64,000 nucleotides of DNA from Methyloceanibacter caenitepidi (GTDB lineage Bacteria; Pseudomonadota; Alphaproteobacteria; Rhizobiales; Methyloligellaceae), in contig NZ_AP014648.1 of NCBI RefSeq assembly GCF_000828475.1, positions 2,367,400 to 2,431,399 of the forward strand, given 5' to 3'. Both the position numbers and the translations under genes were made by a program. How positions within the stretch are numbered: the first letter of the stretch is position 1; each line of letters opens with the position of its first letter. A model generated the notes under the pieces. It was not told the DNA's origin. It did no database searches and was given only the letters and a program-made list of their open reading frames with translations. This document shows, piece after piece, positions 45,959 through 61,512 of the stretch.

Positions 45959-46330
45959 CGGACTGCCCACGCGATGGCCCTCTGTGGACTCCCGGCCGGA
46001 CTTCCGCCCGCTGACGGGCATCCAACCGCCATCGGCCTTGCGCTCCAGCGCAAGCCGCGATTGGCAACGGAGTCGAATCTCGCGGGCGCTCGACAGCCAC
46101 AAAGCGTGTCATGAGCCGAAGCGCCATTCCCCACGGCGGAAACCGGTGTTCTACAAGGCTCACCCAACCCGAGCCGCTTAGAACCAAAGCTTATCAATTT
46201 CCGCCAATCCACCTTAGCGGTCATCGGGACGGCGGCCAATAGCCCTTCGCCAACGCGTTATGCGGCAGGGCCTCTGTAGCGAGATAGTCTGAGGGGTAAT
46301 CGCTGCCGGAACGGCGAAACGCGGCGGAGC
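45959..46330. other. gene-free spacer between two minus-strand genes
   Basis: About 370 nt between the large membrane protein and the small lipoprotein. Apart from the possible upstream start of the former (TTG at 46102) I see no gene, tRNA or clear terminator; probably the promoter region of the membrane protein. Confidence 0.4.
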
Positions 46331-46612
46331 CTAGAACTCGTTCAGGCCACCCAGGACCCGGTCGAAATCGCGGGCCTTCTGATAGTCGATTTCAGCCTTC
46401 GTGGCCCTTTTCGTCGCCCGTTCCTGGCGGCAGGCCTCATAGGCGGCGTCGCCGGGTTCGGCGTTCGTCTTCCGGCATTGTGCGTCGTCCTCGGCGTTGG
46501 CGGCTTCTTCCTTGGCCAAACGCCCAGCCTCGATATCGCCGCGCGAAGCGCAACCAGCGAGGGCGACCGCAAGGGACGCGAGGGCCACCGGGACTAGAAA
46601 AGGTCTCAACAT
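46331..46612 (-). CDS. small lipoprotein
   Basis: 93 residues. Lipoprotein signal: MLRPFLVPVALASLAVALAGC with lipobox LAGC, Cys21 lipidated. The mature part is charged and helical (EAGRLAKEEAANAEDDAQCRKTNAEPGDAAYEACRQERATKRATKAEIDYQKARDFDRVL) with two cysteines. No family is recognised. A single gene, divergent from the S10 peptidase gene. Confidence 0.7.
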   Translation of the reverse strand: MLRPFLVPVALASLAVALAGCASRGDIEAGRLAKEEAANAEDDAQCRKTNAEPGDAAYEACRQERATKRATKAEIDYQKARDFDRVLGGLNEF

Positions 46613-46755
46613 GACAGATTGGCTTGGCCCCCAAACATGGCACGGTCAAGGTCAAAGCTGCGTGATTGTAACCACGCTGCCTTGAGAGCGCCCGTTTGAG
46701 TCCTTAGCTGCGATAAAGGAAAGACGCGTCCCCAGACGAAGACATCGGAGAAATC

Positions 46756-48414
46756 GTGATCCTGTTCCGCCAACGCCGCACCGCAAACACCGTCCTCTCC
46801 CTCCTCGCCGCTCTAATGATCCTTGCCGCTACGGGCGCCGCCCACGCGGGTGAAACGCATGGGGCCGAGAAGGCGTTCTCCGACGGGATTAAACTAGCTT
46901 CCACCGACCAGACAACCGAAGCGTCGGAGAGCACCGGCTCTGACAGCAGCAGCCAGAACGGCACCGACGAAGATTCAGACGAATCCAAGAGCGCCGAAAA
47001 GCCGCTGCGCCTGCCCGCGGACGTCACAACGCAGCACGTTCTCAAACAGAACGGCAAAGACATTCCGTACACGGCCATTGCCGGCACGATCAAACCCCAT
47101 GACGGCAGCGGCAAGCCCGAGGCGGAGATCTTCTACACCTCATACACGACGCACCCCTTGGACGCCGACCGGCCGATCACCTTCGTCTTCAACGGCGGTC
47201 CTGGTGCCGCATCGACCTATCTGCACCTCGGCGCCATGGGGCCGAAAGTCGTGGCCACCACCGAAGATGGCGCGTTGATCGGGCCGCCTGCGCAACTCAT
47301 TGCCAACGAGGCGAGCTGGCTGGATTTCACCGACCTCGTCTTTGTCGACCCCGTCGGCACCGGCTACAGCGGCGCCGCCGGCAGCAAGAGCGGGAAGGAC
47401 TTCTGGGGCGTCGACCAGGACGCGGAATCCCTCGCCGACTTCATTCGTCTCTACCTGACCGAAACGGGCCGCATGGGCTCGCCGGTGTTCCTCGCCGGAG
47501 AAAGCTATGGCGGCTTCCGCGTGGCCGTCCTTGCCCGGAAACTGCAAGAGAAAGGCAGCGTATCCCCGAGCGGTCTCGTGTTGATCTCTCCAGCGCTGGA
47601 GTTCGCGATGCTGCGGGGCGAGGACTTCGACCCACTTCCCTGGGCACTGCAACTCCCCTCCTATGCCGCGGTAAAGCTGGAGAGCGAGGGAACCACCTCG
47701 CGCGAAGGACTGGCGGCAGCCCTTGAAGATGTCGAACACTACGCCATGACCGACTACCTCGTGGCGCTCGCCTCGGGAGTCCAGCCAGGCGGCGAAACGG
47801 CAAGCGAAAAAGTGGCCGAGCTCACCGGCCTGCCGTTGCAGAAGGTCGAGCGCTACTTCGCCCGCGTCCCCCAATCCGTCTTCGTCAAGGAGTTCGACCG
47901 GGACGACGGTCAGGTCCTGAGCATGTATGACGGGAGCGTCGGCGGTCCCGATCCAAACCCGTCAAGCGCCTGGCCCCGCGGTCCCGACCCCGTTCTCGAC
48001 GCCACCGTGCCGTTGTGGTCGACAGCCTTCGTGCGCTACGCCGCCGAGGATCTGGGCTACAAGACCGACGAGGAATTCACGCTCCTAAACCGGAAGATCA
48101 GCAGCCGCTGGGACTACGGCACCAGCCCCACCAAGCAGGGCTATGCCGGCGTCATGGACGATATCCAAGATGCCCGGGCCGCCAACCCGAACCTCGAAGT
48201 TCTGATCGCCAGCGGCTACACCGATCTGATCACGCCCTATTCCGTGCCGGCCTATCTCGTCGGTCAATTGCCGCCGTTGAAGGGCGCGAAGCCCATCGAG
48301 ATCAAGAACTATGCCGGGGGCCATATGCTCTATTTGCGGGCGCCCTCGCGTCTCCACCTGAAGCAGGACGCGCAAGCCATGTACGCCCGCGCGACCGGCG
48401 AAAAAGGATCCTAG
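46756..48414 (+). CDS. exported S10-family serine carboxypeptidase
   Basis: 552 residues, GTG start at 46756 with GGAG 5 nt upstream. Signal peptide about residues 12-31 (LSLLAALMILAATGAAHAG), then a Ser/Asp-rich linker. The alpha/beta-hydrolase S10 motifs are complete: oxyanion region TFVFNGGPGAAS, Ser250 in GESYGGFRVAVL, Asp490 in SGYTDLITPY, His523 in AGGHMLYLRAPS. Hydrolyses C-terminal residues of peptides at acidic pH in known relatives. Bacterial members are usually periplasmic. Its 3' end overlaps the convergent TVP38-like gene by 4 nt. Confidence 0.88.
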   Translation: MILFRQRRTANTVLSLLAALMILAATGAAHAGETHGAEKAFSDGIKLASTDQTTEASESTGSDSSSQNGTDEDSDESKSAEKPLRLPADVTTQHVLKQNGKDIPYTAIAGTIKPHDGSGKPEAEIFYTSYTTHPLDADRPITFVFNGGPGAASTYLHLGAMGPKVVATTEDGALIGPPAQLIANEASWLDFTDLVFVDPVGTGYSGAAGSKSGKDFWGVDQDAESLADFIRLYLTETGRMGSPVFLAGESYGGFRVAVLARKLQEKGSVSPSGLVLISPALEFAMLRGEDFDPLPWALQLPSYAAVKLESEGTTSREGLAAALEDVEHYAMTDYLVALASGVQPGGETASEKVAELTGLPLQKVERYFARVPQSVFVKEFDRDDGQVLSMYDGSVGGPDPNPSSAWPRGPDPVLDATVPLWSTAFVRYAAEDLGYKTDEEFTLLNRKISSRWDYGTSPTKQGYAGVMDDIQDARAANPNLEVLIASGYTDLITPYSVPAYLVGQLPPLKGAKPIEIKNYAGGHMLYLRAPSRLHLKQDAQAMYARATGEKGS

Positions 48415-49124
48415 ACGTTCGTGGAAAGCAGCGGCTTTTCGCGTGCCCCGAAGCGAGGCCAATGCTTCCTCGACAAGCCGACGAGCGTGCCCAACGCGAA
48501 CAGCCCGATGACCCCAACGGCAAGGGTGTTGGATCCGAACGCCACCAATTGCTGCCCGGCCGCGACCACCAGCAGCGTGTAAGGCAGCAGCGCGGCGAAA
48601 CTGGCGAGGTAAAAACGCCAACCGCTCAGCGAGGTAATGCCGGCCACGTAGCTGAGCGCGTCCATGTTGAGCCCCGGCACCAGCCGGCACAGAAAGACCG
48701 CCAGCATCAAATGCGATTGCGGCGTGTTCTCATCGAGCAGCCAACGGCCAATACGCGTTTGCGAGACCCGATCGAGCCAGCCCCGGCGCACCACGAAATC
48801 GCGGCCGAAACGCCTGCCGATAACAAAGCCTACAAGCGCCCCGAGCTGCGCGCCGATCATCACATAGAGCGTGCCGAGAAAGACTCCTTGCGTCGCGCCC
48901 GCCGCAAGCAGGAGCGGCGACGTCGGCACGACGCCGGTGAGGCTTGCAAGAAAACGCAAGAACACGATGGCGATGGGGCCGAAGACGCCAAGCGAGGGCA
49001 AGCCCCGCTGCAGATCGAAATTTTCGAGCGCAACGGCGCCGGCTGGCGTGGTCGTCCACAAGAGAGCCAGCGTGCACAGGCCGATGAAGGCTGTTGGAAT
49101 CGCTCGATGAACCTTCAGCATCAT
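48411..49124 (-). CDS. TVP38/TMEM64 (DedA-like, VTT domain) membrane protein
   Basis: 237 residues, five to six membrane helices. The VTT signature region is VVPTSPLLLAAGATQGVFLGTLYVMIGAQLGALVGFVIGRRFGRD, followed by FLCRLVPGLNMDALSYVAGITSLSGWRFYLASFAALLPYTLLVV. Bacterial relatives are linked to lipid scrambling or transport; the substrate here is unknown. Convergent with the S10 peptidase. Confidence 0.85.
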   Translation of the reverse strand: MMLKVHRAIPTAFIGLCTLALLWTTTPAGAVALENFDLQRGLPSLGVFGPIAIVFLRFLASLTGVVPTSPLLLAAGATQGVFLGTLYVMIGAQLGALVGFVIGRRFGRDFVVRRGWLDRVSQTRIGRWLLDENTPQSHLMLAVFLCRLVPGLNMDALSYVAGITSLSGWRFYLASFAALLPYTLLVVAAGQQLVAFGSNTLAVGVIGLFALGTLVGLSRKHWPRFGAREKPLLSTNV

Positions 49125-49335
49125 GCGCCGTGCTTACGGCAGTCGCATAACCGGAGAACGACAGCCTGAAGCAATGAGCCATTGTTCGTCGTGCCGCTGT
49201 TGTTTGGAGATCCACCGTGCCCAGAGCTTGTCAAATTGCGCCAATGTGCGGTCAGAACGGCGCTGCCCCCTTGCGGACGCCCTTTTTTTGTGGTCCACGG
49301 GCTCTCCACTGGATCGGCGACTTTGAGGATTGGTG

Positions 49336-49989
49336 ATGTCTCTTGGAGGTCTCACGGACTCTGTACGTACAACCTTGGCCCTTGCGATGGCCGGCGCAGC
49401 TGTAGCGGCGTTTGGTTTCGCGGGCCTGGCAAGCGCACAAGATGCTGCGACGACGGACACCGGCGCGGAAGACCAAGCGGCGCAAGTTCTCGCTTGGCAT
49501 GAGTTTCATTATCCCGAACGCGGCTTCGTCATTTCGTTCCCGGGCGTCACGGAACGGCCCAAGGCCGAGAGCACACCCGTGCCGGGGCAGAATCCCCTGC
49601 TTCAGCACGAGTACAAGGTCGAAGCCGGCAAGGACACGGTCTACTCCGTCGTCGTGTTCGAGTATCCGGAGGGACGCGCGCCGAATCCGCCCAGCCAGGA
49701 CTATTTCGAGAAAGTCGTGACGGCTTACGCCAAGGGCAGCGATACGGATCTGCGCCGCAAGACCCCGCTAAAAATCGACGAGCGTCCGGGCTACGAAGCG
49801 AAAGCCGAAGACAGCAAGGGCAAGCTCAACCACTTGATCACGATGGTCGCCAATGGCGACCGGGTCTACATGCTGATCTCGGCCGGACCGAACAAGCACG
49901 CCACCAGCGAGGACGCGCTGCGCTTTCGAGACAGCTTCCGTCTGCTCGGCGGGCCGCCGCCGCCCGGGCAGGCTAAGAAAGACGAGTAG
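49336..49989 (+). CDS. exported protein of unknown function
   Basis: 217 residues. ATG at 49336 with GAGGA 6 nt upstream; TTG and GTG codons just before are less likely. Signal peptide RTTLALAMAGAAVAAFGFAGLASAQ. The mature part is a single domain containing FHYPERGFVISFPG, TPVPGQNPLLQHEYKVEAGKDTVYSVVVFEYP and GDRVYMLISAGPNKHATSEDALRFRDSFRLL. It resembles the periplasmic PsbP/MOG1-like hypothetical proteins, not assigned. A Pro-rich tail (GGPPPPGQAKK) ends the protein. Confidence 0.7.
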   Translation: MSLGGLTDSVRTTLALAMAGAAVAAFGFAGLASAQDAATTDTGAEDQAAQVLAWHEFHYPERGFVISFPGVTERPKAESTPVPGQNPLLQHEYKVEAGKDTVYSVVVFEYPEGRAPNPPSQDYFEKVVTAYAKGSDTDLRRKTPLKIDERPGYEAKAEDSKGKLNHLITMVANGDRVYMLISAGPNKHATSEDALRFRDSFRLLGGPPPPGQAKKDE

Positions 49990-50019
49990 GCCCGGCTGGT
50001 TGACCTGCGGCTCTCGTCG

Positions 50020-51567
50020 CTAAACAGGCTCCGCCCGCAGAGTGTCGAAGAAGCGCTGTCGCCTAGCCGACGGCGCGGGCGCGAATAGTCCTACAAGAAT
50101 CGCAACCAGGAACCCCACCGGGACGCCAAACACGCCGGCCAGGGATCCTTGCACGCCAAGCCAGTTCGCGATCGGCCGCACCGACTCTCTCCACTCCGCC
50201 AACACGGCCGCCTGCTTCGCGGCATCGCTTGTGAGGTAGTACTCGTGGCGCAGAGCCTCGAAGGCCGTTGTCTGCGCCGCAGTCGCGTCCGACAAGAGGC
50301 TCGAGGACTCGTAGAACAGGATGGGCATCGTGTGCGGCGCGATCATGTAATAGAGGCACACCAAGAGCCCCGCGATCATGCCCGCCAGGGCCGCATCGCT
50401 CCCAAGCCGCTTCCACCAGATCCCCAACACCAGCACGGGCAGGAATGCGCTCGCCGCCAAGGACAACGCCGTCGCGGCGCCGACCAGCGTTTCCTGCGGC
50501 CACCGCAACGCCACGGCGCCAGCCGCAACGGCGACCGCGAAAACCGACAGGCGGGCCACGGAAAGCTGCCGGCCGGCAGAGGCGTTGGGCGCGAGGCTTT
50601 TGAAGTACACGTCGTGAGCGATCATGTTGGCGATCGACAAGGCGAGCGCCGCGCCCGTGGACAGGAGGGCCGCTACGGACACGACGGCGAGCACGGCCTC
50701 GCTGAGCATGGACAGGCCGTCGCCAACGGCCAAGGCGGCCGGCTCGTATAGCGCCGCAACCGCTGGAATCGCGGCACAGATGAGGAAAAGGAACACAGGG
50801 GCCCCAACGAAAGACAACCGGGCATCGCTCATGTCCGGTGCCGCGAAGCTCCGCATGAGCAGATAGGGCAGCGAAGCGAACCCCGTCACGAGACAGAAGA
50901 ACAGCGCAAACGAATTGATAGGGCTCGACTGGGCGAAGGGCTGCCAGGACAGAGCTGGGATCACTTCATCGACCAGAAGCGTGTCCGTGCCCGTCAGCGA
51001 GCCCGTTTGCCAAAGCACGGCAACGACGGCGACAAGCCCCGCCAGCAGCATCACCATGTAATAGGCGAGCTGCGACAGGCTCAGCGATCGCATGCCGCCG
51101 ATCAGCGTCGCCACGAAAATGAAGACGATCCCCCCTGCGATGCCGATCCATACGGGAAGCGCCAGCGCCGCCTGTCCCAGCAGGCCGAAGCCGAGCATCA
51201 CGGCGCCTAGCGCCGGAAACGAACACAGCAAGGCGGCAAAAACGCCGAGCGGCCGCATCGTCTCGGCATTGAACCGTTCCGCCAGGAAGTCCGGCAGCGT
51301 GTAGCCACCATAGCCACGCAGGTACGGCGCGATCAGCAGGCCAGCCAGGACGAGGCCGAGCCCCGCGCCCACGAGGAGCAGCGTCGCACCCTGCCAGCCG
51401 AAATCGATACCGCCGGCCGCGCCGACGAAAACGAGCGCCCCCACCGCGGACCCGGCGATAGCGATGGCGTTAAGAAAGGCCGGCATGAGACGGCCGGACG
51501 CAAAGAAGTCGGCGAGCGGACGGGTCAGGCGAACCAGCCCCGCCCGCGCAAAAAGCAGCGCCGCCAT
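50020..51567 (-). CDS. sodium:solute symporter family protein (ActP-like)
   Basis: 515 residues, about 12-13 hydrophobic segments. SSS family core: LADFFASGRLMPAFLNAIAIAGSAVGALVFVGAAGG, YGGYTLPDFLAERFNAETMRPLGV, and GFASLPYLLMRSFAAPDMSDAR with the NSFALFFCLVTGFASLP sodium-site region. Closest to the acetate/cation symporter-like subfamily. The usual first helix is short at the annotated start; the seven in-frame codons upstream (STQLTLL) are hydrophobic, so a start overlapping the oxyR end is possible. It follows the OxyR-like regulator gene by 20 nt. Confidence 0.85.
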   Translation of the reverse strand: MAALLFARAGLVRLTRPLADFFASGRLMPAFLNAIAIAGSAVGALVFVGAAGGIDFGWQGATLLLVGAGLGLVLAGLLIAPYLRGYGGYTLPDFLAERFNAETMRPLGVFAALLCSFPALGAVMLGFGLLGQAALALPVWIGIAGGIVFIFVATLIGGMRSLSLSQLAYYMVMLLAGLVAVVAVLWQTGSLTGTDTLLVDEVIPALSWQPFAQSSPINSFALFFCLVTGFASLPYLLMRSFAAPDMSDARLSFVGAPVFLFLICAAIPAVAALYEPAALAVGDGLSMLSEAVLAVVSVAALLSTGAALALSIANMIAHDVYFKSLAPNASAGRQLSVARLSVFAVAVAAGAVALRWPQETLVGAATALSLAASAFLPVLVLGIWWKRLGSDAALAGMIAGLLVCLYYMIAPHTMPILFYESSSLLSDATAAQTTAFEALRHEYYLTSDAAKQAAVLAEWRESVRPIANWLGVQGSLAGVFGVPVGFLVAILVGLFAPAPSARRQRFFDTLRAEPV

Positions 51568-51587
51568 CAGAAGAGTAAGCTGGGTAC

Positions 51588-52529
51588 TTAGCGTTTTGGG
51601 CCTCCCTTCGGCCGCCGCGGCCGTGCCTTGTCAGGCGCTGCCGGCGCCGCGTCGCGCAGCAACTCGCCAAGCTGCATGAACTCCGCCTTCCGGGGCGAAC
51701 TCCTGCGCCAGGCAAGTCCGATCTCCCGTTTGGGCTCCGGCTCGGTGAAACGCAAGAGCCGAATATCGTCGTCAGGATGAACCTCGATCGCCGCCGCCAT
51801 TTCCGGCAGCAAAGTCACGCCGTAGCCGTTCGCCACCATCTGCATGATCGTGGTGAGGCTCGAGGCGCCGAAACTCTGGCGCATGTCGGGCGCCATCAGA
51901 TGGCAATAGGACAAGGCCTGGTCCCGGAGGCAATGCCCCTCCTCCAGCAGCAGCAGGCGGTCCTGCGCCAGCATGTCCTGGGTCGCCGACACGATGCCCG
52001 AATTGTCCGGCGTGGCCTTGGTCGCGAGAATGAAGGAGTCGTCGAACAAGTAATGAGTCTCCACGGCAGGATCGTCGATGGGCAGCGCCACGAGAATAAC
52101 GTCGAGGTCGCCGCTTACAAGCTCGCGCACCAATGTTTCGGTGACTGTCTCGCGCAGGCGCAGCGAAAGATCCGGAAAACGCGCCTGCAGGGCCGGCAAC
52201 GCGGCCGGCAGCAGGTACGGCGCGATCGACGGGATCGCGCCCAGCTTCAGAACACCGGTGAGGAAGCCTTCCTGCCCCTTGGCGTAGTCTACGAGGTCCT
52301 GGACCGAGGCAAGAATGGTCCGGGCCCTGCCCGCGATCTCCTCGCCCTTGTCGGTGAGTTCGACGCCGGATTTGCGGCGCTCCACGAGTTTCAGCTTCAA
52401 CTCGTCCTCGAGATCCTTGATCTGCATGCTGAGGGCGGGCTGGCTGACGGCACAATCTCGCGCCGCCTGCCCGAAATGGCGCGTGCGGGCCAGCGCCTCC
52501 AGGTAGCGCAACTGTCGGAAAGACACCAT
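51588..52529 (-). CDS. oxyR: LysR-family hydrogen-peroxide-responsive regulator (OxyR-like)
   Basis: 313 residues. N-terminal winged helix FRQLRYLEALARTRHFGQAARDCAVSQPALSMQIKDLE. The regulatory domain keeps the redox cysteines at Cys200 and Cys209 (GHCLRDQALSYC), the spacing of E. coli Cys199/Cys208, so disulfide switching is expected. C-terminal tail Arg/Lys/Pro-rich. The start has no clear ribosome-binding site; an inverted repeat ATAAC-N5-GTTAT sits directly upstream at 52535-52549. It is divergent from pqqCDE and followed by a symporter gene. Confidence 0.88.
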   Translation of the reverse strand: MVSFRQLRYLEALARTRHFGQAARDCAVSQPALSMQIKDLEDELKLKLVERRKSGVELTDKGEEIAGRARTILASVQDLVDYAKGQEGFLTGVLKLGAIPSIAPYLLPAALPALQARFPDLSLRLRETVTETLVRELVSGDLDVILVALPIDDPAVETHYLFDDSFILATKATPDNSGIVSATQDMLAQDRLLLLEEGHCLRDQALSYCHLMAPDMRQSFGASSLTTIMQMVANGYGVTLLPEMAAAIEVHPDDDIRLLRFTEPEPKREIGLAWRRSSPRKAEFMQLGELLRDAAPAAPDKARPRRPKGGPKR

Positions 52530-52534
52530 TGGCG

Positions 52535-52549
52535 ATAACGATTAGTTAT
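52535..52549. promoter_or_regulatory. inverted repeat at the oxyR-like start, possible LysR operator
   Basis: ATAAC-GATTA-GTTAT, 5-bp arms with 5-nt centre, 6 nt from the start codon of the OxyR-like gene; typical geometry of a half-site pair for a LysR regulator, so autoregulation is plausible. The rest of the divergent 314-nt region (52530-52843) also holds the 10-nt palindrome GTTCATGAAC at 52729-52738. No PqqA-type gene is seen in it. Confidence 0.45.
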
Positions 52550-52799
52550 GAAACGGGGGCGGTCAGTGAGGATTTACTTATCATGGCATCGGCGCCCGCG
52601 CTATTTGCGATGAGCCGGGCATGCAATGGAACGGCAGGGTTTCTTCCGGTAGAGTTCAAATATCGGGCTGCCAGGCTGACGGCCCAGATCAGCGGCTTCA
52701 GATGTTCTTAATCCGGGTTCAAGCCCGTGTTCATGAACGAGTCATAGATTCCTTGCGGATTCTCCCCATTTATCTAGGGAGAGACCGTTTCGAGGCGCC

Positions 52800-52847
52800 A
52801 TGAAGAAGTGCCGTATTTGGAAACCCAATGAGGAAGTAGGCCCGTGA
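52800..52847 (+). CDS. possible 15-codon leader peptide overlapping pqqC
   Basis: ATG at 52800 opens MKKCRIWKPNEEVGP and ends with TGA overlapping the pqqC GTG start (GTGA). The sequence upstream of this ATG (TTTCGAGGCGCC) has GAGG 5 nt away. It does not have the E-x3-Y pair of PqqA, so it is not PqqA. It could couple translation to pqqC or be chance. Confidence 0.25.
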   Translation: MKKCRIWKPNEEVGP

Positions 52848-53578
52848 CCAAGATTCTAAGTCCCGAGGAACTCGAGGAGGAGCTGCGCGCCATCGGAGCC
52901 GCGCAGTACCATGACAAACACCCGTTTCATAAGCTCTTGCACGGCGGCAAGCTGAACAAGGGCCAGGTCCAAGCCTGGGCGCTGAACCGCTACTGCTACC
53001 AGTCGGCCGTGCCCCGCAAAGACGCGGCGCTGATGAGCCGCTGCCACGACCGCGACTTGCGGCGCGAGTGGATCCACCGCATCACCGACCACGACGGCCA
53101 AGGCGACGAAGAAGGCGGCATCGAGCGCTGGCTCGTGCTCACCGACGGCCTGGGGCTCGACCGCGACTATGTGATCTCCCGCAAAGGCGCCCTGCCCGAG
53201 ACGGTTTTCGCCGTCGAGGCCTATGTGAACTTCGTGCGCGACAAGACGCTCGTCGAGGCCGTGGCCTCGTCGCTCACCGAGCTGTTCGCGCCGAGCATTC
53301 ACAAGGAGCGTATCTCGGGCATGCTCGAGAACTACGACTTCATCAGCGACGACGTGATGGCCTACTTCAAGCGCCGCCTCACCCAGGCGCCGCGCGATGC
53401 CAACTTCGCGCTCGAGTACTGCAAGCAGAACGCCCGGACGCCCGAGGCGCAGCAAGGCGTGCTCGACGCACTGCGCTTCAAGACCCACGTCTTGTGGGCG
53501 CAACTCGATGCGCTTTACCTCGCCTATGTCGATCCGGGCATGATCCCGCCCGGCGCCTTCGTGCCGGATGCGGCCTGA
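52844..53578 (+). CDS. pqqC: pyrroloquinoline-quinone synthase PqqC
   Basis: 244 residues, GTG start at 52844 with GAGGAAG about 8 nt upstream. Cofactor-less oxidase that performs the last step of PQQ biosynthesis, oxidising and cyclising AHQQ with O2. Family segments: YHDKHPFHKLLHGGKLNKGQVQAWALNRYCYQSAVPRKDA, HDRDLRREWIHRITDHDG and ALRFKTHVLWAQLDALYLAYVD, all helical heme-oxygenase-like. Its stop overlaps the pqqD start by one base (TGATG). pqqA and pqqB are absent on either side here. Confidence 0.95.
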   Translation: MTKILSPEELEEELRAIGAAQYHDKHPFHKLLHGGKLNKGQVQAWALNRYCYQSAVPRKDAALMSRCHDRDLRREWIHRITDHDGQGDEEGGIERWLVLTDGLGLDRDYVISRKGALPETVFAVEAYVNFVRDKTLVEAVASSLTELFAPSIHKERISGMLENYDFISDDVMAYFKRRLTQAPRDANFALEYCKQNARTPEAQQGVLDALRFKTHVLWAQLDALYLAYVDPGMIPPGAFVPDAA

Positions 53579-53880
53579 TGGCAGATGTGAAACAGCCCGG
53601 CCGGCTTGTCGTCGACCGGGCGACAAAACCGGTGATGCCCCGTTATTTGAAACTACGCCACGATGCGGGGCGAGACCGTTGGGTGCTCCTCGCGCCCGAA
53701 CGGATCATGACGCCGGATGCAATCGCCGTGGAGGTGCTGAAACTGTGCGACGGAGAACGCACCGTGGAAGACATCGCCGCGAAACTGGCCGAGGAGTATT
53801 CCGCGCCCGTCGACGTGATTACCGCGGACGTAACCGAGTTACTCCAAGACATGGCCGACAAAGGATACATCAAGGGATAG
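53578..53880 (+). CDS. pqqD: PQQ biosynthesis peptide chaperone PqqD
   Basis: 100 residues. RiPP-recognition-element protein that binds the PqqA peptide and hands it to Pqq[28 protein letters not shown] and [21 protein letters not shown] match PqqD. The ATG overlaps the pqqC stop (TGATG), and pqqE starts 4 nt later, so the three are translationally linked. Confidence 0.95.
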
Positions 53881-53884
53881 TGCG

Positions 53885-55117
53885 ATGACGGACGATCTCA
53901 AGATTGACAGACATATGGACGCCGTCGCCGTTGACGACGAACCGACGACGGGTGTCATTGGCAGCGAGGAAGAGTCGAACATGCTGTGCGCCGTCGCGCC
54001 GGTGGGTCTGCTCGCGGAGCTCACACATCGCTGCCCGCTGCAATGCCCCTATTGTTCGAATCCGGTGGAACTGGAAAGCGTCAAGAACGAGCTGACCACG
54101 GAAGAGTGGTGCTCGGTCATGCGCCAGGCCGGCGAGATGGGCATTTTGCAGGTCCATCTGTCGGGCGGCGAGCCCACGGCGCGTAAAGACCTTGAGGACA
54201 TCGTCAAGGCCGCGGCGGACGCAGGCCTTTACACCAACCTCATCACTGCCGCCGTGAACGTGAAACGCGAGCGTTTGGAGAAGCTCCAGGAGCTCGGTCT
54301 CGATCATGTGCAGGTCTCCGTCCAGGACGTGGACCCGGCCGGCGCGGAGCGCATCGGCGCATTCAAGAACGCGCTGGAGAAGAAGCTGGAGGTCTGCCAC
54401 TGGGTCACCGAGCTCGGCATGCCGCTGACCATCAACGCCCCCATCCATCGCCACAACATCCACAACGTGCCGCGCTATATCGACTTGGCCGTGGAACTCG
54501 GCGCACAGCGTGTCGAGATTGCCCATGCGCAGTATTACGGCTGGGCGTTTCTCAACCGCGCCGCGCTGATCCCCACCTACGAAGAGACGGTCGCCTCGAT
54601 CGAATATGTAGAGGCGGCGCGAGAGCGTCTGAAAGGCATCCTGACCATCGACATGGTCGTGCCCGACTACTACGCCAAGCGCCCAAAGCCCTGCATGGGC
54701 GGCTGGGGCAAGGGCTTCATGAACATCACGCCCGCCGGCAAGGTTCTGCCCTGCCACGCGGCGGAAAGCATCCCGGAACTCAATTTCGACAACGTGCGCG
54801 ACAAGAAGCTCTTGGACATCTGGATGGACTCCGAAGCGTTCAACGCATTCCGGGGCACTGATTGGATGAAGGAGCCTTGCCGGTCTTGTGCGTTCAAGGA
54901 AGTCGACTTCGGCGGCTGCCGCTGCCAGGCCATGGCGATCAGTAAGGATCCGCGCAACACGGACCCCGCCTGCTCGCTCTCGCCCTATCACAGCGAGATG
55001 GTGAAACTGGCCAAGTCCGAAGCGGCTCAGCCCGCCACGGCGTTCGTCTACCGCAACACGCGCAACGCCGCGCAAGTCGGCAAGGCGCACGGCGAGGAAC
55101 TGGTCCCGGCCGAATAG
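53885..55117 (+). CDS. pqqE: PqqA peptide cyclase PqqE (radical SAM, SPASM)
   Basis: 410 residues. Joins Glu and Tyr side chains of PqqA. Radical SAM cluster: Cys50, Cys54, Cys57 (CPLQCPYC); SAM glycine-rich [11 protein letters not shown]-terminal SPASM cysteines in [14 protein letters not shown] and [20 protein letters not shown]. The N-terminus has about 40 extra residues before [13 protein letters not shown] compared with common PqqE. The ATG at 53885 is supported by AAGGGA 7 nt upstream, so the extension is probably real. A terminator follows at 55153. Confidence 0.96.
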
Positions 55118-55152
55118 CCTGCGCAAAAGCGCTGCTCACCAAGACGTTCTGC

Positions 55153-55185
55153 AAAGGCGCTCCCATCGCGGGCGCCTTTGTTCTT
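55153..55185 (+). terminator. rho-independent terminator after pqqCDE
   Basis: AAAGGCGC...GGCGCCTTT hairpin (55153-55178) followed by GTTCTT. It ends the pqq transcript. Confidence 0.75.
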
Positions 55186-55225
55186 GGGTGGCTGGAGTTG
55201 CGGCTAACGTCACGCCAACGCAGAC

Positions 55226-56152
55226 TCACGCCGATGCTCCCGCCGTGCTCGGGGATGTCTGCGCTGCGTTGCCTAGCAGCGTGACATAGGCATGAGCGAA
55301 ACTCAGCTGGCCGAGCAAGAATACGAGGTCGAAACAAATCCACTTCAGGGTGAGGGCGGCAAAAATGACCACCCTGCCCTCCAACGGTACCTCGTCCCAA
55401 TAGAATCCAAGCATACGGACAACCACCCCCACAACCGTCCAGAAGACGACCATGCCGAGTAGCCGTCCGCGACTTCCTTTGGTCATGCGGATGCTCTCTC
55501 TCATGGCCTCAATCGGCCCGAGATTCCGGTCGATCACGAGCAAACCCGGGAAGGCCAGAAAAACTCTGGTGACGAAGTATGGGATAAGCATCGCGGCAAA
55601 GCAGACGAAGCCCCAATGTGTCGAATTCATAATCTCAGCGGGGCTCCACCCGACTGCACCGAACACGATAGCCGGGAAAGCATATGTTCCTGGCGATAGC
55701 GAACCCCAACCGATGAAGTCAAACACAATGAGCCATGGTGCAAGACTCATCGTGTAGGTGTGCTCTAGGTCCCACGCAGAAAAGAGTGCAGCAACAACCG
55801 AGACACCGCTGAGTTCTGCCAACCACCAGACAATCCAAACGACCGCGAACGACCAATAAGGATGTGGCCGGAAGAGCGCCCTCAGCCGGCCCGCGTCCAA
55901 CCCGCCACAAACATGCAGGCAAAACACGAGCATCCCCATGGAAACGAGGATCCCGGTAGCCTCGTAGAGGAGCATGCGCCACCACGCTAAGGGATGCAGG
56001 GGGAAATCAGTCGCATTGTCGATGTGTTCAATAATTCTGCCTGGCAGTTCGTACGCAACTGAGATCACCAGTGCGGCCGCCAAAAACAAAGCCGGACGCC
56101 CCATGAACATCGTCCAGCTCGATTGAATTGACGACTTGGCTGAAAACCGCAT
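55226..56152 (-). CDS. polytopic membrane protein, paralogue 1 of 3
   Basis: 308 residues, about six to seven hydrophobic segments. Shares with the next two minus-strand genes the motif DRNLGPIEAMRESIRMTKGSRGRLLG (compare DRGLGPLDALKTSMEMTKGNRWPLFG), plus a C-terminal FAHAYVTLLG region. The start of this copy is about 90 residues longer than the others and more aromatic. Resembles DUF975 or glycerophosphodiester-phosphodiesterase membrane-domain-like proteins; function unknown. Confidence 0.7.
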   Translation of the reverse strand: MRFSAKSSIQSSWTMFMGRPALFLAAALVISVAYELPGRIIEHIDNATDFPLHPLAWWRMLLYEATGILVSMGMLVFCLHVCGGLDAGRLRALFRPHPYWSFAVVWIVWWLAELSGVSVVAALFSAWDLEHTYTMSLAPWLIVFDFIGWGSLSPGTYAFPAIVFGAVGWSPAEIMNSTHWGFVCFAAMLIPYFVTRVFLAFPGLLVIDRNLGPIEAMRESIRMTKGSRGRLLGMVVFWTVVGVVVRMLGFYWDEVPLEGRVVIFAALTLKWICFDLVFLLGQLSFAHAYVTLLGNAAQTSPSTAGASA

Positions 56153-56245
56153 GGGCGAAGCTTAGCGCAACCTCTAATTGTACAGAAGCGCTATGTCAGG
56201 GATGTATGTCGCGCACATGCTTCAGGGGCACGAGATGCTTTAGCC

Positions 56246-56905
56246 TCAGGCCGCCAGCCGCGCGTCCGCTGCCTCGGCGTTGTCAAGCCTGCCCGACAAG
56301 GCCCGGTAGGCATAGGCCGTGGCGAGCCCCACAATGGGCACGGCCACGAGAAGGCCGAGCCCAAGGGCCAATACGCCGAGAGCCAGGATGAGCGCTGTGA
56401 GGACGGCGAACCCGAACAGCGGCCAGCGGTTGCCCTTGGTCATCTCCATGCTCGTCTTCAGCGCGTCGAGCGGCCCCAAGCCGCGGTCGACGACGAGGAA
56501 ACCGGCGAACATGAACAGCACCATCGCGATCAGACCCGGCACGATCAGCAGGACGAGACCGAAGCCGATCGCCAGCGACGTCAGAAGCGAGGTGGCGAAA
56601 AACTTCCAATAGAATGCCGGATGCCAAAGGGCAGAATACGCCACGCCATCCGGATCGTCGTGGGCGGCCAAGAAAAAGGCGACTGCCCCCTCAATGATCA
56701 AAGCGCTCAGCGCGAGATTCACGAGGTTCGACACAATGGTCGGCTCCTCGAGGGTGCCTCCCGTCAATCTGTTGACCCCGCTGGTAACGCCGACGTTCAG
56801 GACGTTCGCCACAAGCAGAATGGCGGCGGCGCCAACGAAGAACCAGGGGCGCTTCTTGAACGTGTCCCAGCCAAACTGGATTGCAGTCGTAGGTGAAAAC
56901 CCCAT
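56246..56905 (-). CDS. polytopic membrane protein, paralogue 2 of 3
   Basis: 219 residues from the ATG at 56905 (MGFSPTTAIQFGWDTFKKRPWFFVGAA); the GTG pair upstream is unlikely. Five to six hydrophobic segments; central motif DRGLGPLDALKTSMEMTKGNRWPLFG; end GLATAYAYRALSGRLDNAEAADARLAA. The same length as paralogue 3 and similar through most of the chain, so a recent tandem duplication. Confidence 0.75.
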   Translation of the reverse strand: MGFSPTTAIQFGWDTFKKRPWFFVGAAAILLVANVLNVGVTSGVNRLTGGTLEEPTIVSNLVNLALSALIIEGAVAFFLAAHDDPDGVAYSALWHPAFYWKFFATSLLTSLAIGFGLVLLIVPGLIAMVLFMFAGFLVVDRGLGPLDALKTSMEMTKGNRWPLFGFAVLTALILALGVLALGLGLLVAVPIVGLATAYAYRALSGRLDNAEAADARLAA

Positions 56906-57024
56906 GAGCACCACCTAGCTCCGTTGCGTGACGGCCCGCCAAGGCAGACTGAACAACACTCACTGCTGATGTTGTAGGGGGATCGCGACCTGAGTCAGAG
57001 TCCCCGCCGCCCCCGCCCGTGGCC

Positions 57025-57684
57025 TCAGATATCGAGCCGCGCGTCCGGTGGCGCAATCCGCGCCGCATGGCCGGACAAGAGCCGGTAGGCATAGGCGAAG
57101 GCGATGCCGACGATCGGCGCCGCCACGAGAAGCCCGACGCCGAGCGCAAGTACACCCACGAAGATGATCAGCAGGCAAAGGAGCAGGAAGCCGAACAGCG
57201 GCCAGCGATTGCCCTTGGTCATCTCCATGCTCTCTTTCAACGCATCGACCGGGCCCAAGCCGCGGTCGATCACGAGAAAAGTCGAAAACATGAAGAGAAC
57301 CATGGCGATCAGCCCGGGGACGATCAGCAGTACCAGCCCGATACCCACGGCCAGCGAGGCCAGAACGGACGTGGCGAAGAACTTCCAATAGGGGCTCGGA
57401 TGCCACAGGGTCGCAAATTCGACCCCATCTGGATTGTCGTGGGAGGCCAGGAAAAAGGCCGTCATACCCATGCTGATCAGCACGCCCAGCAAGTAGCTGA
57501 CGAGATTGCCGAGGATAGTCGGCTCCTCATACGAGCCACCCGTAATGGTGTCGACCGCGCCGCTGACGATGCCGACGGCAATGTTCGCCACCGCCAGGAT
57601 CACCATCGCGCCAATGAAGAACCAGGGACGCCTCTTGAACGTCTCCCAACCAAACCGAATTGCGTCGCCGGGTGAGAACTGCAT
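57025..57684 (-). CDS. polytopic membrane protein, paralogue 3 of 3
   Basis: 219 residues. MQFSPGDAIRFGWETFKRRPWFFIGAM start; motif DRGLGPVDALKESMEMTKGNRWPLFG; end AFAYAYRLLSGHAARIAPPDARLDI. Highly similar to the 56246 gene (same length, same order of conserved stretches). It is preceded by the 250-nt region before the divergent substrate-binding protein gene. No function can be assigned. Confidence 0.75.
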   Translation of the reverse strand: MQFSPGDAIRFGWETFKRRPWFFIGAMVILAVANIAVGIVSGAVDTITGGSYEEPTILGNLVSYLLGVLISMGMTAFFLASHDNPDGVEFATLWHPSPYWKFFATSVLASLAVGIGLVLLIVPGLIAMVLFMFSTFLVIDRGLGPVDALKESMEMTKGNRWPLFGFLLLCLLIIFVGVLALGVGLLVAAPIVGIAFAYAYRLLSGHAARIAPPDARLDI

Positions 57685-57783
57685 AGAGCCAACCTATCAC
57701 TTCCGCGCCCGTTTTTTGGAAAAGGATCGCCGTTCTCCAACAGAATCCACAGTTTCCTTAGAAGCGTGAACTATCCCTCAGGA

Positions 57784-57833
57784 TTGCCACTTAATCCCGC
57801 CGCTGTTTCCAACTTGCCATCCCATTGTTGCCA
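57784..57833 (+). promoter_or_regulatory. three TTGCCA direct repeats upstream of the PQQ-linked binding-protein gene
   Basis: TTGCCA occurs at 57784, 57814 and 57828 within 50 nt, in the 251-nt divergent region before the ATG at 57936. Spacing 30 and 14 nt. Could be activator binding sites or chance. Confidence 0.3.
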
Positions 57834-57935
57834 TTTGTAGCATGCCGAAAAAGAACACGGCCCCTCTGAAGACGCCGCCGGCAAGGGGTGGACTGTGATC
57901 TGAGGAAACGCTCGCCCGGCGGCCAAGGCCCGATC

Positions 57936-59243
57936 ATGCGCATCGATACGCTTCCGGTAGGTCTCGCCCGTGCGGTCGCGATTGCCGCTATCATGTTTCT
58001 CGGGTTGGCGGCCGGCCCCGCATCAGCCGCCGACAACAACGAACCCGCCCAGCAGAGGGAGGGCGGCGTCGCTATTCGGCTGCCGCAGTCGCCCCCCATG
58101 ACGCCGGTCGATATTGGCTACATCCGCGAGGAGGTTGCCGGTCCGCGGCCCGCCTCGCGCCTGGACATCGAGCCGGACAATGCGGGCATCGCCGGCGCCG
58201 AAATGGGCGTCAAAGAGAACAACGCCGGCGGCCGTTTCATGGGGCACCTCTACGGGCTGGATGTCGAGACGGCTTCATCGCCCGAGGAAGCGGTCGAGGC
58301 GCTTAAGAAGCTCTCCGAGTCTGGTCACAACTATATCGTGGTCGACGCTTCGGCGCCGACGTTGCTCAAGCTGTCCGATTGGGCGGCGGACAAGGACATC
58401 CTGCTGTTCAATATCCGCGCCGAGGACGTTTCCCTGCGTCAGGAAGATTGCCGCGCGAACGTCATGCATGTCGTGCCGGATCGCTACATGCTCGCCGACG
58501 CCCTCGCGCAATATCTCGTCAAGATGGGATGGACGGACTGGCTCGTCGTCCACGGCTCTACGGACGCCGACAAAGCTTACCGCGACGCGGTCGTGCGCGC
58601 GGCCGAGCGCTTCGGCGCCAACATCGTCGACGATCGCGAGTACATCGACGTGTCCGGCGGACGGCGCGACAGCGTCGGGCCTATTCCTCCGGCGAAGCCC
58701 CACAAGGAAGCCAATGCCAACCACCAGATGGTCAAGCCGGTCGACTACGACGTGATCGTGGTGGCAGACGAGAACCAGACGTTTGGCCCCCTGATACCCT
58801 ATCGCGGCGGGGGGCAGCCGCGGGTCGTGGCCGGTACGACAGGCCTGACGGCCACCACCTGGAGCCGTGGCCACGAGAAATGGGGCGCGACTCAAGCGAA
58901 CAACAATTTCGAGAAAGCCAACAACCGGCTCATGCTGCCGATCGACCACATGGCCTACGTGGCCACGCGGACAATCGGAGAAGCAGTGACCCGGAAGCCC
59001 AAGAACGACTTTGAAACAGTCTCGGCCTTCATCCACGGGCCTGACCTGCAGCTTGCGCCCTTCAAAGGCATCAAGCAGCAGTTCCGGCCTTGGGACGGTC
59101 AGTTCCGCCAGCCCATTCTAATCGCGACCGAGAAGGTGCCGGTGTCCGTATCACCGCAAAAGGGCTTTCCGCATGCGAGCCACCCGGAGATCGAAGTCGA
59201 CACGCTCGGCATCGACGAGCCGGAGAGTAAATGCAAGATGTAG
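57936..59243 (+). CDS. ABC-type substrate-binding protein of the PQQ-dependent alcohol dehydrogenase system
   Basis: 435 residues from the ATG at 57936 (MRIDTLPVGLARAVAIAAIM), whose signal peptide ends near GPASAAD. An upstream ATG at 57888 is less likely. The mature chain is a type-1 periplasmic-binding fold in which the usual helix-strand order is visible (MGHLYGLDVETASSPEEAVEALKKL, VVDASAPTLLKL, ADALAQYLVKMGWTDWLVVHG, YDVIVVADENQTFGPLIPY). Matches the subfamily annotated as PQQ-dependent alcohol dehydrogenase-associated ABC substrate-binding protein; the ligand is unknown. No permease or ATPase is adjacent. It converges with the next gene, 2 nt apart. Confidence 0.83.
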   Translation: MRIDTLPVGLARAVAIAAIMFLGLAAGPASAADNNEPAQQREGGVAIRLPQSPPMTPVDIGYIREEVAGPRPASRLDIEPDNAGIAGAEMGVKENNAGGRFMGHLYGLDVETASSPEEAVEALKKLSESGHNYIVVDASAPTLLKLSDWAADKDILLFNIRAEDVSLRQEDCRANVMHVVPDRYMLADALAQYLVKMGWTDWLVVHGSTDADKAYRDAVVRAAERFGANIVDDREYIDVSGGRRDSVGPIPPAKPHKEANANHQMVKPVDYDVIVVADENQTFGPLIPYRGGGQPRVVAGTTGLTATTWSRGHEKWGATQANNNFEKANNRLMLPIDHMAYVATRTIGEAVTRKPKNDFETVSAFIHGPDLQLAPFKGIKQQFRPWDGQFRQPILIATEKVPVSVSPQKGFPHASHPEIEVDTLGIDEPESKCKM

Positions 59244-59245
59244 GC

Positions 59246-60127
59246 TTATTGAACGGCCGGCGCGGCGCCTTCCGTCGTCAGAAGGTGCCCCTCCCGGTCT
59301 AGAACCGGGACATCGTAGTCCTCAAGGATCGCTAGGATCTCGTCCGCGTTCTCGGCCAGGACCTTGTTCACCTGATGCTTGAACTGAGGTTCGTTCGGAC
59401 GAATGCCGAGCGTGATTGGATAAAACGTCGCCGGCCCCGCGCGCTCCTTTACCAACGGCACGACGTTCAGAGGGACATCGGAAAGAGCGGCGTAGTAGCC
59501 GCCGATGGGTCCCCAAAGAAGCCCCGCATCGAGCTCTCCCGAAACGATCTCCGCAATCATTTTTTGAGCAATCGCGGACTGACTCTCACCGGAGCGCGCG
59601 TCGAACGGTTTGGCATTCGCGATCAGGCCGTGCATGGCAAGGATGCTCGCCGGCGGCGTGCGCGCGACGAGCCCGATGCGCTTCGATTTGAGCCTTGGAT
59701 CCGACAACGAGATTACGCCGTCCAACGCCGCATCGTCGGCGCGCGTAATAAGAACGTAGGATGCGTAGTAGTAAGGGTTCGAATCTTCGATCAGCCCCGT
59801 GCCTTGCGCATAGCCCATCACCATCGCGCAGGCGTTCTCTCCGACCGTATTCGGGACGTAGCCGGTGTCCTCCGGGAACCATGTGTAGACGAGTTTGAGG
59901 TCCAGACGGTCGGCAATGAGCTTGGCAAGCTTGTTTTCAAAGCCTTCCCCCTTGTCGTTCGAGAACGGCATGTTGTCGGGATCGGCGCAAACGCGCAGGA
60001 CGCCCGCCTCCATGGCGCGCGCTTGACCGGCGGCACACACGAACACGACGGCCAGCACAACGGCCGCCCAAACTGGACCGCCCCGCCGCGCAGCCGCGCT
60101 CCTCGTTCGTGATCGAGCTTTGCTCAA
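59246..60127 (-). CDS. quinoprotein dehydrogenase-associated substrate-binding protein (MoxJ/XoxJ-like)
   Basis: 293 residues from a TTG at 60127 with GAGGA 6 nt upstream; a more upstream start at 60241 adds 38 basic residues before the signal peptide. Type-2 periplasmic-binding fold: LRVCADPDNMPFSNDKGEGFENKLAKLIADRL, GLVARTPPASILAM and GLLWGPIGGYYAALS. Belongs to the MoxJ/XoxJ-type family that occurs with methanol or ethanol dehydrogenases and is thought to help their assembly or bind a ligand; no dehydrogenase gene is in this window. Converges with the binding-protein gene at 57936. Confidence 0.82.
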   Translation of the reverse strand: MSKARSRTRSAAARRGGPVWAAVVLAVVFVCAAGQARAMEAGVLRVCADPDNMPFSNDKGEGFENKLAKLIADRLDLKLVYTWFPEDTGYVPNTVGENACAMVMGYAQGTGLIEDSNPYYYASYVLITRADDAALDGVISLSDPRLKSKRIGLVARTPPASILAMHGLIANAKPFDARSGESQSAIAQKMIAEIVSGELDAGLLWGPIGGYYAALSDVPLNVVPLVKERAGPATFYPITLGIRPNEPQFKHQVNKVLAENADEILAILEDYDVPVLDREGHLLTTEGAAPAVQ

Positions 60128-60289
60128 GGGCGTTCCTCTGCCGCGCGTCCTGCGCTGTCTCCTCTGTCCGGGCCGGATCGACCAGCCGCGCACGCGTCGA
60201 AGTAAGTCAGGGTTCGAGACCGTCTTAAACGACGACTGCAATCCCGGAGCAAGGGCAACCTCTGGGAACCGGCGCCCCTTTGCTTCGGT

Positions 60290-60844
60290 TTATGGGTCGA
60301 CCCCTGCGCAACGGCGGATGTTGTCCACCCGTTCCAAACCTGTCGGGTAGTACGCACCGGTGGGGTTGTCGCCGAATTCGGCCATCGCAACCGACCCGGC
60401 GTCGATACCGTCATCCTCGCGCCGTTCGCGGAGAAGGCGCACAGCGCAGCAGTCGGCCTCGAGTTCCATGCGCTTCAACGCTGGGGCTATGTAATAGAAG
60501 GCCTGCGGTCCGACATGACCCAGCCCCTTCTTGGCGTTCGCCACATGGCCGAGCGTGTGGTGGCAGCACTCATGCGCCAACAGAAATCGGCTGTAACTCG
60601 GCTGATCCCGCAGCGTCATGGCGTTGACAACGATAACGGGACGCCCGAGGCGATCCGTCATGGAGGAGGCTTGCTCCTCGACTCCGCGGAGCTTGTAGGT
60701 CCGGATGTTGCAGTAGGGATTGTCGACCTCCGGCAGGAAACGCCCCGCCCGGGCCGGCGACGATGGCTGAGAAACAATAAATGCGACCAGTGCGGCCGGA
60801 AGCACGGCCACGAGGACGACCGGCAGCCGCGAGAAAACCAGCAT
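60290..60844 (-). CDS. putative secreted zinc metalloprotease (HECCH motif)
   Basis: 184 residues from the ATG at 60844. N-terminal signal or anchor (LPVVLVAVLPAALVAFIV). A HExxH zinc motif HECCHHTLGH lies at residues 91-100, followed 33 residues later by MELEADCCAVRLL with Glu127 as likely third ligand, the M48-like order HExxH...ExxAD. Extra cysteines surround the site (HECCH, DCCA). Family not recognised with certainty; a reduced-size M48/M56-like peptidase is the best guess. Confidence 0.6.
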   Translation of the reverse strand: MLVFSRLPVVLVAVLPAALVAFIVSQPSSPARAGRFLPEVDNPYCNIRTYKLRGVEEQASSMTDRLGRPVIVVNAMTLRDQPSYSRFLLAHECCHHTLGHVANAKKGLGHVGPQAFYYIAPALKRMELEADCCAVRLLRERREDDGIDAGSVAMAEFGDNPTGAYYPTGLERVDNIRRCAGVDP

Positions 60845-61086
60845 TCTTCTTCTATCGCGCCCGGCACCCCACAAACCGGGCAGCCGGCGGACCGGCCATC
60901 TGATTTGGCGCATTTGGCGGATATTAGCGGAAACTGGCGCCTCGCACGATAAATACTGCGTTATTTGGGAACTGTGACGTTCGTCACACCCCGTACAAGG
61001 CCACGTTGATCCTGGTCATGCCCCCCACCATATACGGCAGACCCCCAACCGCCGATCGGCGATCTTTCGCCCCGGAGGACCCGACG

Positions 61087-61362
61087 ATGATGACCGAACT
61101 GATGAAGCAGCTGACCCTTTCCGTCTTTGGCCTCGTTCTTGGCGTGGCCGTTCTCGCCGCCAACAGCAATCCGGCCATGGCCGACCGCGGCAAGGCCTAC
61201 TGGATCGACGGCACGCCGCGCTATTCCAACGAGCCGACGGTGATCAAGCGGAAATCCAAGTCCGCACAGACCGCCAAGGCCAAAGACAAGTTTCAGAACA
61301 ATCTCAACTTCGAAACCGAAGCCGTCTGGCGCAACCTGCGCCCGAACTGGTTCTCCGACTAA
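61087..61362 (+). CDS. small exported protein of unknown function
   Basis: 91 residues from the ATG at 61087 with GGAGG 8 nt upstream; longer starts are rejected because the signal peptide starts here. Signal peptide QLTLSVFGLVLGVAVLAANSNPAMAD. Mature part about 65 residues, basic, with KAYWIDGTPRYSNEPTVIKRKSKS and FETEAVWRNLRPNWFSD. No family. Ends in a perfect terminator, so it is a single-gene unit. Confidence 0.65.
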   Translation: MMTELMKQLTLSVFGLVLGVAVLAANSNPAMADRGKAYWIDGTPRYSNEPTVIKRKSKSAQTAKAKDKFQNNLNFETEAVWRNLRPNWFSD

Positions 61363-61370
61363 AGACAGCT

Positions 61371-61402
61371 GAAACGCCCCGTATCGGGGCGTTTCGTTTT
61401 TT
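61371..61402 (+). terminator. rho-independent terminator
   Basis: GAAACGCCCCG-tat-CGGGGCGTTTC, 11-bp perfect stem, followed by GTTTTTT. It lies 8 nt after the stop of the small exported gene. Confidence 0.92.
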
Positions 61403-61432
61403 GGACTGCCCGTCCGCGTACCGGCGCGCCAA

Positions 61433-61460
61433 TTGACAGGCCCGTATCAGCCGATAGGGT
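61433..61460 (+). promoter_or_regulatory. candidate promoter for the CHASE2-cyclase gene
   Basis: Consensus -35 TTGACA (61433-61438), 16-nt spacer, weak -10 TAGGGT (61455-61460), 52 nt before the ATG at 61513. The -35 is perfect; the -10 matches only 3/6. Confidence 0.45.
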
Positions 61461-61512
61461 CTGGCCGCTGCGGGCCCCTCGCCCGGCCGAAAACGACGGA
61501 ATTACGAGCGGG

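Follow-up and report, generated by a model that had tools for sequence, protein, structure and literature searches.

PQQ genes at three chromosomal places in Methyloceanibacter caenitepidi and a promoter array common to its remote pqqA genes and pqqCDE

The closest described systems are the classic pqqABCDE operon, which holds pqqA and pqqB together with the other genes, and the multi-copy pqqA genes of methylotrophs. Excerpts of earlier studies report 3 to 12 pqqA copies in Methylophilaceae (PMC4109929) and five in another strain (PMC9851590), and excerpts of the Gela4 genome account assign pqqBCDE to two loci, GL4_3155 and 2349-2351, with pqqA not among the pqq genes listed in them (PMC6417678). 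That the genes for the redox cofactor PQQ can be scattered, and that pqqA can occur in several copies, is already known, and the gene content described here is ordinary for methylotrophs. We analysed a 64,000-nucleotide stretch of M. caenitepidi DNA (the window, C1:2367400-2431399) from a one-contig genome of 3,424,964 bases. Its pqq locus resembles the classic operon in its enzymes, its pqqC-D-E order and its close packing, but it lacks both pqqA, which lies ~1.09 Mb away on the circle, and pqqB, which lies ~0.77 Mb from pqqE. As in the multi-copy methylotrophs of those excerpts (PMC4109929, PMC9851590), there are several pqqA genes and single enzyme genes; unlike them, the three copies here are in tandem with separate copies of a promoter array, and the array also precedes pqqCDE. 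We give a probability of roughly 0.7 to the reading that the PQQ genes of Methyloceanibacter are split over three chromosomal places, that pqqA and pqqCDE are probably switched together through the array they share, and that a local pqqA was deleted.

The block in the window comprises three intact genes on the plus strand, pqqC (52844-53578; TIGR02111, 375.9 bits, NCBIfam equivalog cut-off 240), pqqD (53578-53880; TIGR03859, 75.2 bits, cut-off 46) and pqqE (53885-55117; TIGR02109, 556.7 bits, cut-off 381.35). Each encodes a PQQ biosynthesis enzyme that exceeds its curated equivalog cut-off, and the genome holds one copy each of pqqC and pqqE above cut-off. pqqC and pqqD overlap by 1 nt, pqqD and pqqE are separated by 4 nt, and downstream of pqqE, on the same strand, lies a terminator-like hairpin (~55151-55181) that has a T-rich tail. 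With its flanks the hairpin folds at -23.1 kcal/mol (z -3.27); it is missing from the list of a simple terminator scan. These coordinates agree with an earlier note, made from the letters alone, that had described tightly packed pqqCDE genes ending in a terminator, and the three genes would form one transcription unit. The same note had seen neither a PqqA-like peptide nor pqqB upstream, and a search for open reading frames with the pattern M..W..P...E...Y was indeed empty across 45001-62000 (17 kb), including the 314-nt gap between oxyR and pqqC. This locus is thus not an operon that includes pqqA and pqqB. A sigma-70 consensus scan of 52400-55300 found no site, and an Rfam scan of the window and of stretches L005 and L006 returned four tRNAs alone, all within the window.

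Both missing genes turned up elsewhere in the genome, as the earlier note had expected. pqqB is single above cut-off (C1:3192149-3193078). pqqA is present as a tandem of three genes at C1:85.5-86.2 kb, spaced 301 and 280 bp apart, and all three encode an identical 29-residue peptide, MKEWLKPEITESEAGMEVTSYLPAELDRA, which scores 23.9 bits (cut-off 20) and has the E-x3-Y motif as E-V-T-S-Y. By eye, a G+C-rich inverted repeat and a run of Ts lie 3' of each copy, and the terminator scan lists one of the three. These genes add to the Gela4 genome account as excerpted (PMC6417678). For the PqqA protease, PqqF, there were two weak matches, neither above cut-off. A pqqA match occurs in 90 of 297 genomes sampled from the order, with at least two copies in 53 of these. 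One remote pqqA of genome G004 (L115 at 1492) has an altered C-terminal tail following LPAD, where LPAELDRA is usual, beside a normal copy. Near pqqB lie two similar TonB-dependent receptors (L006 8515-13001, minus strand), one with a long Asp/Glu run; that they serve metal or lanthanide uptake is a guess.

The promoters of remote pqqA genes have a distinctive organization. Across 34 such promoters from 17 genomes we found a common array of 7-bp boxes ending in TCAT, TCAG or TAAT and separated by 4-bp spacers, the last box standing, in most copies, 10 bp before CATTAT or a similar element. Each of the three pqqA genes has its own promoter copy with the array. The array recurs before pqqC, in the oxyR-pqqC gap (52695-52756, plus strand), with 7-bp boxes at 11-bp steps: GCTTCAG (52695), TCTTAAT (52706), GTTCAAG (52717), TGTTCAT (52728), GAGTCAT (52739) and TCCTTGC (52750). 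The third box is poor and the sixth is lost, so that boxes 1, 2, 4 and 5 alone fit well. A putative -10-like element, CATTTAT (52767-52773, plus strand), lies 10 bp after the place of box 6, as in most remote pqqA promoters.

We assessed the rarity of this pattern with a matrix built from 27 of the 34 remote pqqA promoters, leaving out four out-of-register rows and the three promoters of this genome. On the window it scored 13.2 bits at pqqC and -20.1 at the next site, and the top score in 60 random sequences of 64 kb was 3.1. Box counting gave one window match, again at pqqC, compared to 1.6 per Mb in random sequence. Among 14 loci of relatives, 12 likewise had their best matrix site before pqqC; the two misses were Methyloligella. 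A genome scan that covered 982,006 of the 3,424,964 bases scored the three pqqA promoters at 65-70 bits and pqqC at 13.2, with the next site at -8.4. These were the top four sites in the scanned bases under each of four matrices, with a small margin for a shorter pqqA-only matrix (pqqC 12.3 versus 4.9) and with pqqC at 51.8 versus -3.4 and 35.7 versus 6.7 for matrices that included relatives' pqqC promoters. The latter set came from 11 of the 12 relatives with their best site at pqqC, L013 being omitted because its register was unsure.

Genome-wide, a three-box pattern had ten matches, half of them in the three pqqA promoters. Of the other five, two overlap long open reading frames (L121, L126), one is at a gene start (L128), one is unsure (L125) and one lies between genes (L127). 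The matrix scan covered the places of L126 and L127, and neither was among its top sites. The L127 match (1501-1526; G000:C1:1288706-1288731, minus strand) reads TCAA/TCAT/TCAT at 11-bp phase just before a 271-aa open reading frame and is possibly the site of a related regulator. Both the matrix scan and the upstream sequences showed the array to be absent from the stretches of pqqB, mxaF and four other methanol dehydrogenase genes. Because pqqB is without it, the array does not unite the whole PQQ pathway, and for the genes tested the idea of a general methanol regulon marked by the array did not hold. That two of the three loci have this unusual promoter pattern in common suggests that pqqA and pqqCDE are switched on together, and not by the neighbouring OxyR. 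Judged by titles and abstract starts, none of the papers listed on OxyR with pqqA, on Methyloceanibacter pqq and on pqqA with PhoB dealt with this arrangement, and a shared array tying scattered pqqA to pqqCDE looks new.

The geometry of the array is reminiscent of OmpR/PhoB-family regulators, which, according to excerpts of PMC4832192, bind 7-bp direct repeats with a strict 4-bp spacer, M. tuberculosis PhoP binding also runs of three and four repeats. The boxes given there are CTGTCAT-(A/T)4-CTGTCAT for E. coli PhoB and GTTCACC-N4-GTTCACC for Streptomyces PhoP. The remote pqqA promoters carry direct repeats of this type; they share the 7-bp motifs, the 4-bp spacers and the absence of a good -35 with the promoters in those excerpts, but differ in having up to six boxes and G+C-rich spacers. 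The genome encodes ten full-length OmpR/PhoB-type regulators as candidates, and by analogy a response regulator of this type would bind the array. One such regulator is PhoB, and the array could then be a Pho box through which phosphate shortage drives PQQ synthesis. This is improbable, although several observations fit it: the 7+4 geometry is the same, the first box is CTGTCAG in many copies, close to the E. coli CTGTCAT (PMC4832192 as excerpted), and the genome has phoB and a pstS promoter with CTGTCAT and GCGTCAT 22 bp apart. The pstS boxes were read by eye, a Pho-box scan of the pst-pho stretch having given no match. However, the array spacers are G+C-rich (the last is GCGG in most copies) whereas those of pstS are A+T-rich, and the best score of the pqqA matrix in the pst-pho stretch is -16.9. 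With pstS spacers of that composition and pstS missed by the matrix, PhoB is possible but not favoured.

While the window has no pqqA beside pqqCDE, some of its relatives do. We compared the best 80 named loci from 383 relatives with PqqC. Outside the window's group, pqqB lies directly 5' of pqqC in 47 of 66 loci from these 80, and in the other 19 pqqC stands alone or farther from pqqB. The window's group contributes 14 loci, from Methyloceanibacter, Methyloligella and their MAGs. Six of them (L014, L015, L020, L021, L022 and L024) have the order oxyR-pqqA-pqqCDE without pqqB, and their local pqqA is of another type than the remote one (REWHKPTIEETESG... and close variants); in the other eight the local pqqA is absent. 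Evidence against a shared array comes from its strength before pqqC, which is 29-54 bits in the species with a local pqqA but low in the window's clade, where box 6 is lost and box 3 poor and where L010 (1.8), L011 (-5.2) and L013 (-9.3) fall within the random range.

A tree of PqqC+PqqE with 23 rows puts the window in a clade of seven, all without a local pqqA, with support of 100/100. Its sister row, L015, has the local gene and joins at 99/97. L018 and G017, both without it, fall outside this set of eight, so a separate loss looks to have occurred there. At least four changes of state are needed on the tree, some deeper forks of which are weak, and Methyloligella may or may not ever have carried the gene. 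Where present, the local pqqA sits upstream of the array, never between the array and pqqC, and the alignments place the deletion by which it was lost between the promoters of oxyR and pqqC. This comparison indicates that the window's clade lost its local pqqA, between oxyR and pqqC, by deletion. Downstream of pqqE, the window encodes a short row of related membrane proteins, two or three in number (55226-57684, minus strand). Next come a PQQ-system ABC binding protein (TIGR03863, 57888-59243, plus strand; 382 bits, below cut-off) and a binding protein of the MoxJ type (TIGR03871, 59246-60241, minus strand; above cut-off). Most of the 14 group loci keep the two binding-protein genes beside pqqCDE, and relatives differ in how many membrane proteins separate pqqE from the gene for the PQQ binding protein.

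Divergent from pqqC lies a gene for an OxyR-like regulator (51588-52529, minus strand). It has Cys200 and Cys209, a redox pair nine residues apart; the pair in E. coli OxyR is Cys199/Cys208. OxyR is its best family (NF008361, 241 bits, below the 329-bit NCBIfam equivalog cut-off), and the closest solved structures are OxyR proteins. Just before its start is an OxyR-type dyad, ATAAC-GATTA-GTTAT (52535-52549), whose arms pair at 5 of 5 positions. The alignment of this region covered 15 rows. A pattern search located the dyad in 12 rows, with 5 of 5 pairs in ten of them, 4 in L011 and 3 in L012, and gave no match in G017. Relatives show a paired change within it, ATAAC-N5-GTTAT versus ATAAG-N5-CTTAT. 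The alignment also points to CTTATCA (52577-52583, minus strand), kept in the window's clade, as a putative -10-like element for oxyR. A sodium/solute symporter family gene (50020-51567, minus strand; PF00474; TIGR03648 at 253.6 bits, below cut-off) follows on the same strand 20 nt behind oxyR, and OxyR here would most likely control its own gene and perhaps the symporter too. Excerpts of PMC5002191 describe OxyR as using repeated ATAGnt elements on one helix face. The arrangement here resembles the oxyR-oxyS type divergon of the same excerpts (PMC5002191) in that an operator lies at the start of oxyR and, among relatives, a candidate target gene diverges from it. It differs in that this candidate encodes a PQQ precursor and is missing from the window.

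Each of the six local-pqqA species has an additional OxyR-type site at 22-bp phase from the dyad, ATAAGGAAATACGAT in five of them and different at two bases in L015; L020 has three OxyR-type sites in phase. In all six, the further site abuts a -35/-10 pair with a constant 18 nt that points at pqqA, the -35 being TTGGAA in all but one species, which has TTTGAA, and the -10 being CATATT in four and GATACT and CATGTT in the others. OxyR sites adjoining a -35 go with activation. The second site and its promoter are absent from five rows of the window's clade by pattern and were unseen in all seven by alignment.

These observations bear on the proposal, built on the earlier note, that OxyR, responding to peroxide, activates pqqCDE through the shared divergent region. 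In its favour, 11 of the named loci compared (the best 80 of 383) have an adjacent oxyR, all of them among Methyloceanibacter relatives, the dyad is kept, and the phased sites of the six species abut their TTGGAA-18-CATATT-like promoter. However, the window's clade lacks that second site and promoter, L016, L017 and L019 keep pqqCDE without an adjacent oxyR, and pqqC has its own array ~145 nt from the dyad. Because this array is common to the remote pqqA genes, OxyR control of pqqCDE, and with it a response of PQQ maturation to oxidative stress, is unsupported here, and we regard it as distinctly unlikely. What stands of the earlier interpretation is that pqqA and pqqB are elsewhere and that an OxyR-like gene with Cys200/Cys209 and an operator-like repeat at its start adjoins pqqCDE. 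With the second site and promoter present in the local-pqqA relatives and absent from the window's clade, a connection of PQQ with oxidative stress is a better match for the relatives than for the window. It may be right for those six and have been lost in the window's clade, and an OxyR-linked pqqA looks new. The short open reading frame MKKCRIWKPNEEVGP (52804-52851) before pqqC is very unlikely to be a leader peptide or a pqqA reduced in size. By eye it has an ATG start, WKP as in PqqA and a stop overlapping the pqqC start. However, it has no E-x3-Y, the alignment shows neither its frame nor, in L010, L011 and L013, its start codon to be kept, and local pqqA elsewhere lies on the other side of the array; we rejected it as a pqqA fossil because it is not conserved.

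We return to the preferred reading, in which the remote pqqA genes and pqqCDE are switched together. PqqA would come from the distant tandem cluster, where three genes with one promoter each encode one peptide, and PqqB from the third, single locus. The three tandem promoters would yield more of the peptide, which is consumed, than of the enzymes. More tentatively, and at a little under even odds, we envisage two PQQ-precursor regimes. A dedicated response-regulator array would serve only remote pqqA and pqqCDE, as a two-locus regulon, and a pqqA paralogue that belongs to the oxyR divergon and is activated by OxyR would tie PQQ supply to peroxide stress in some species, having been deleted in others, including that of the window.

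For peptide-derived cofactors, the general question is how the precursor is kept in step with its maturation enzymes despite scattered genes. With the small set of promoters described here, precursor-enzyme coordination can be tested directly in one cultured methylotroph, and the relatives that have or lack an OxyR-linked pqqA form a natural series for comparison.
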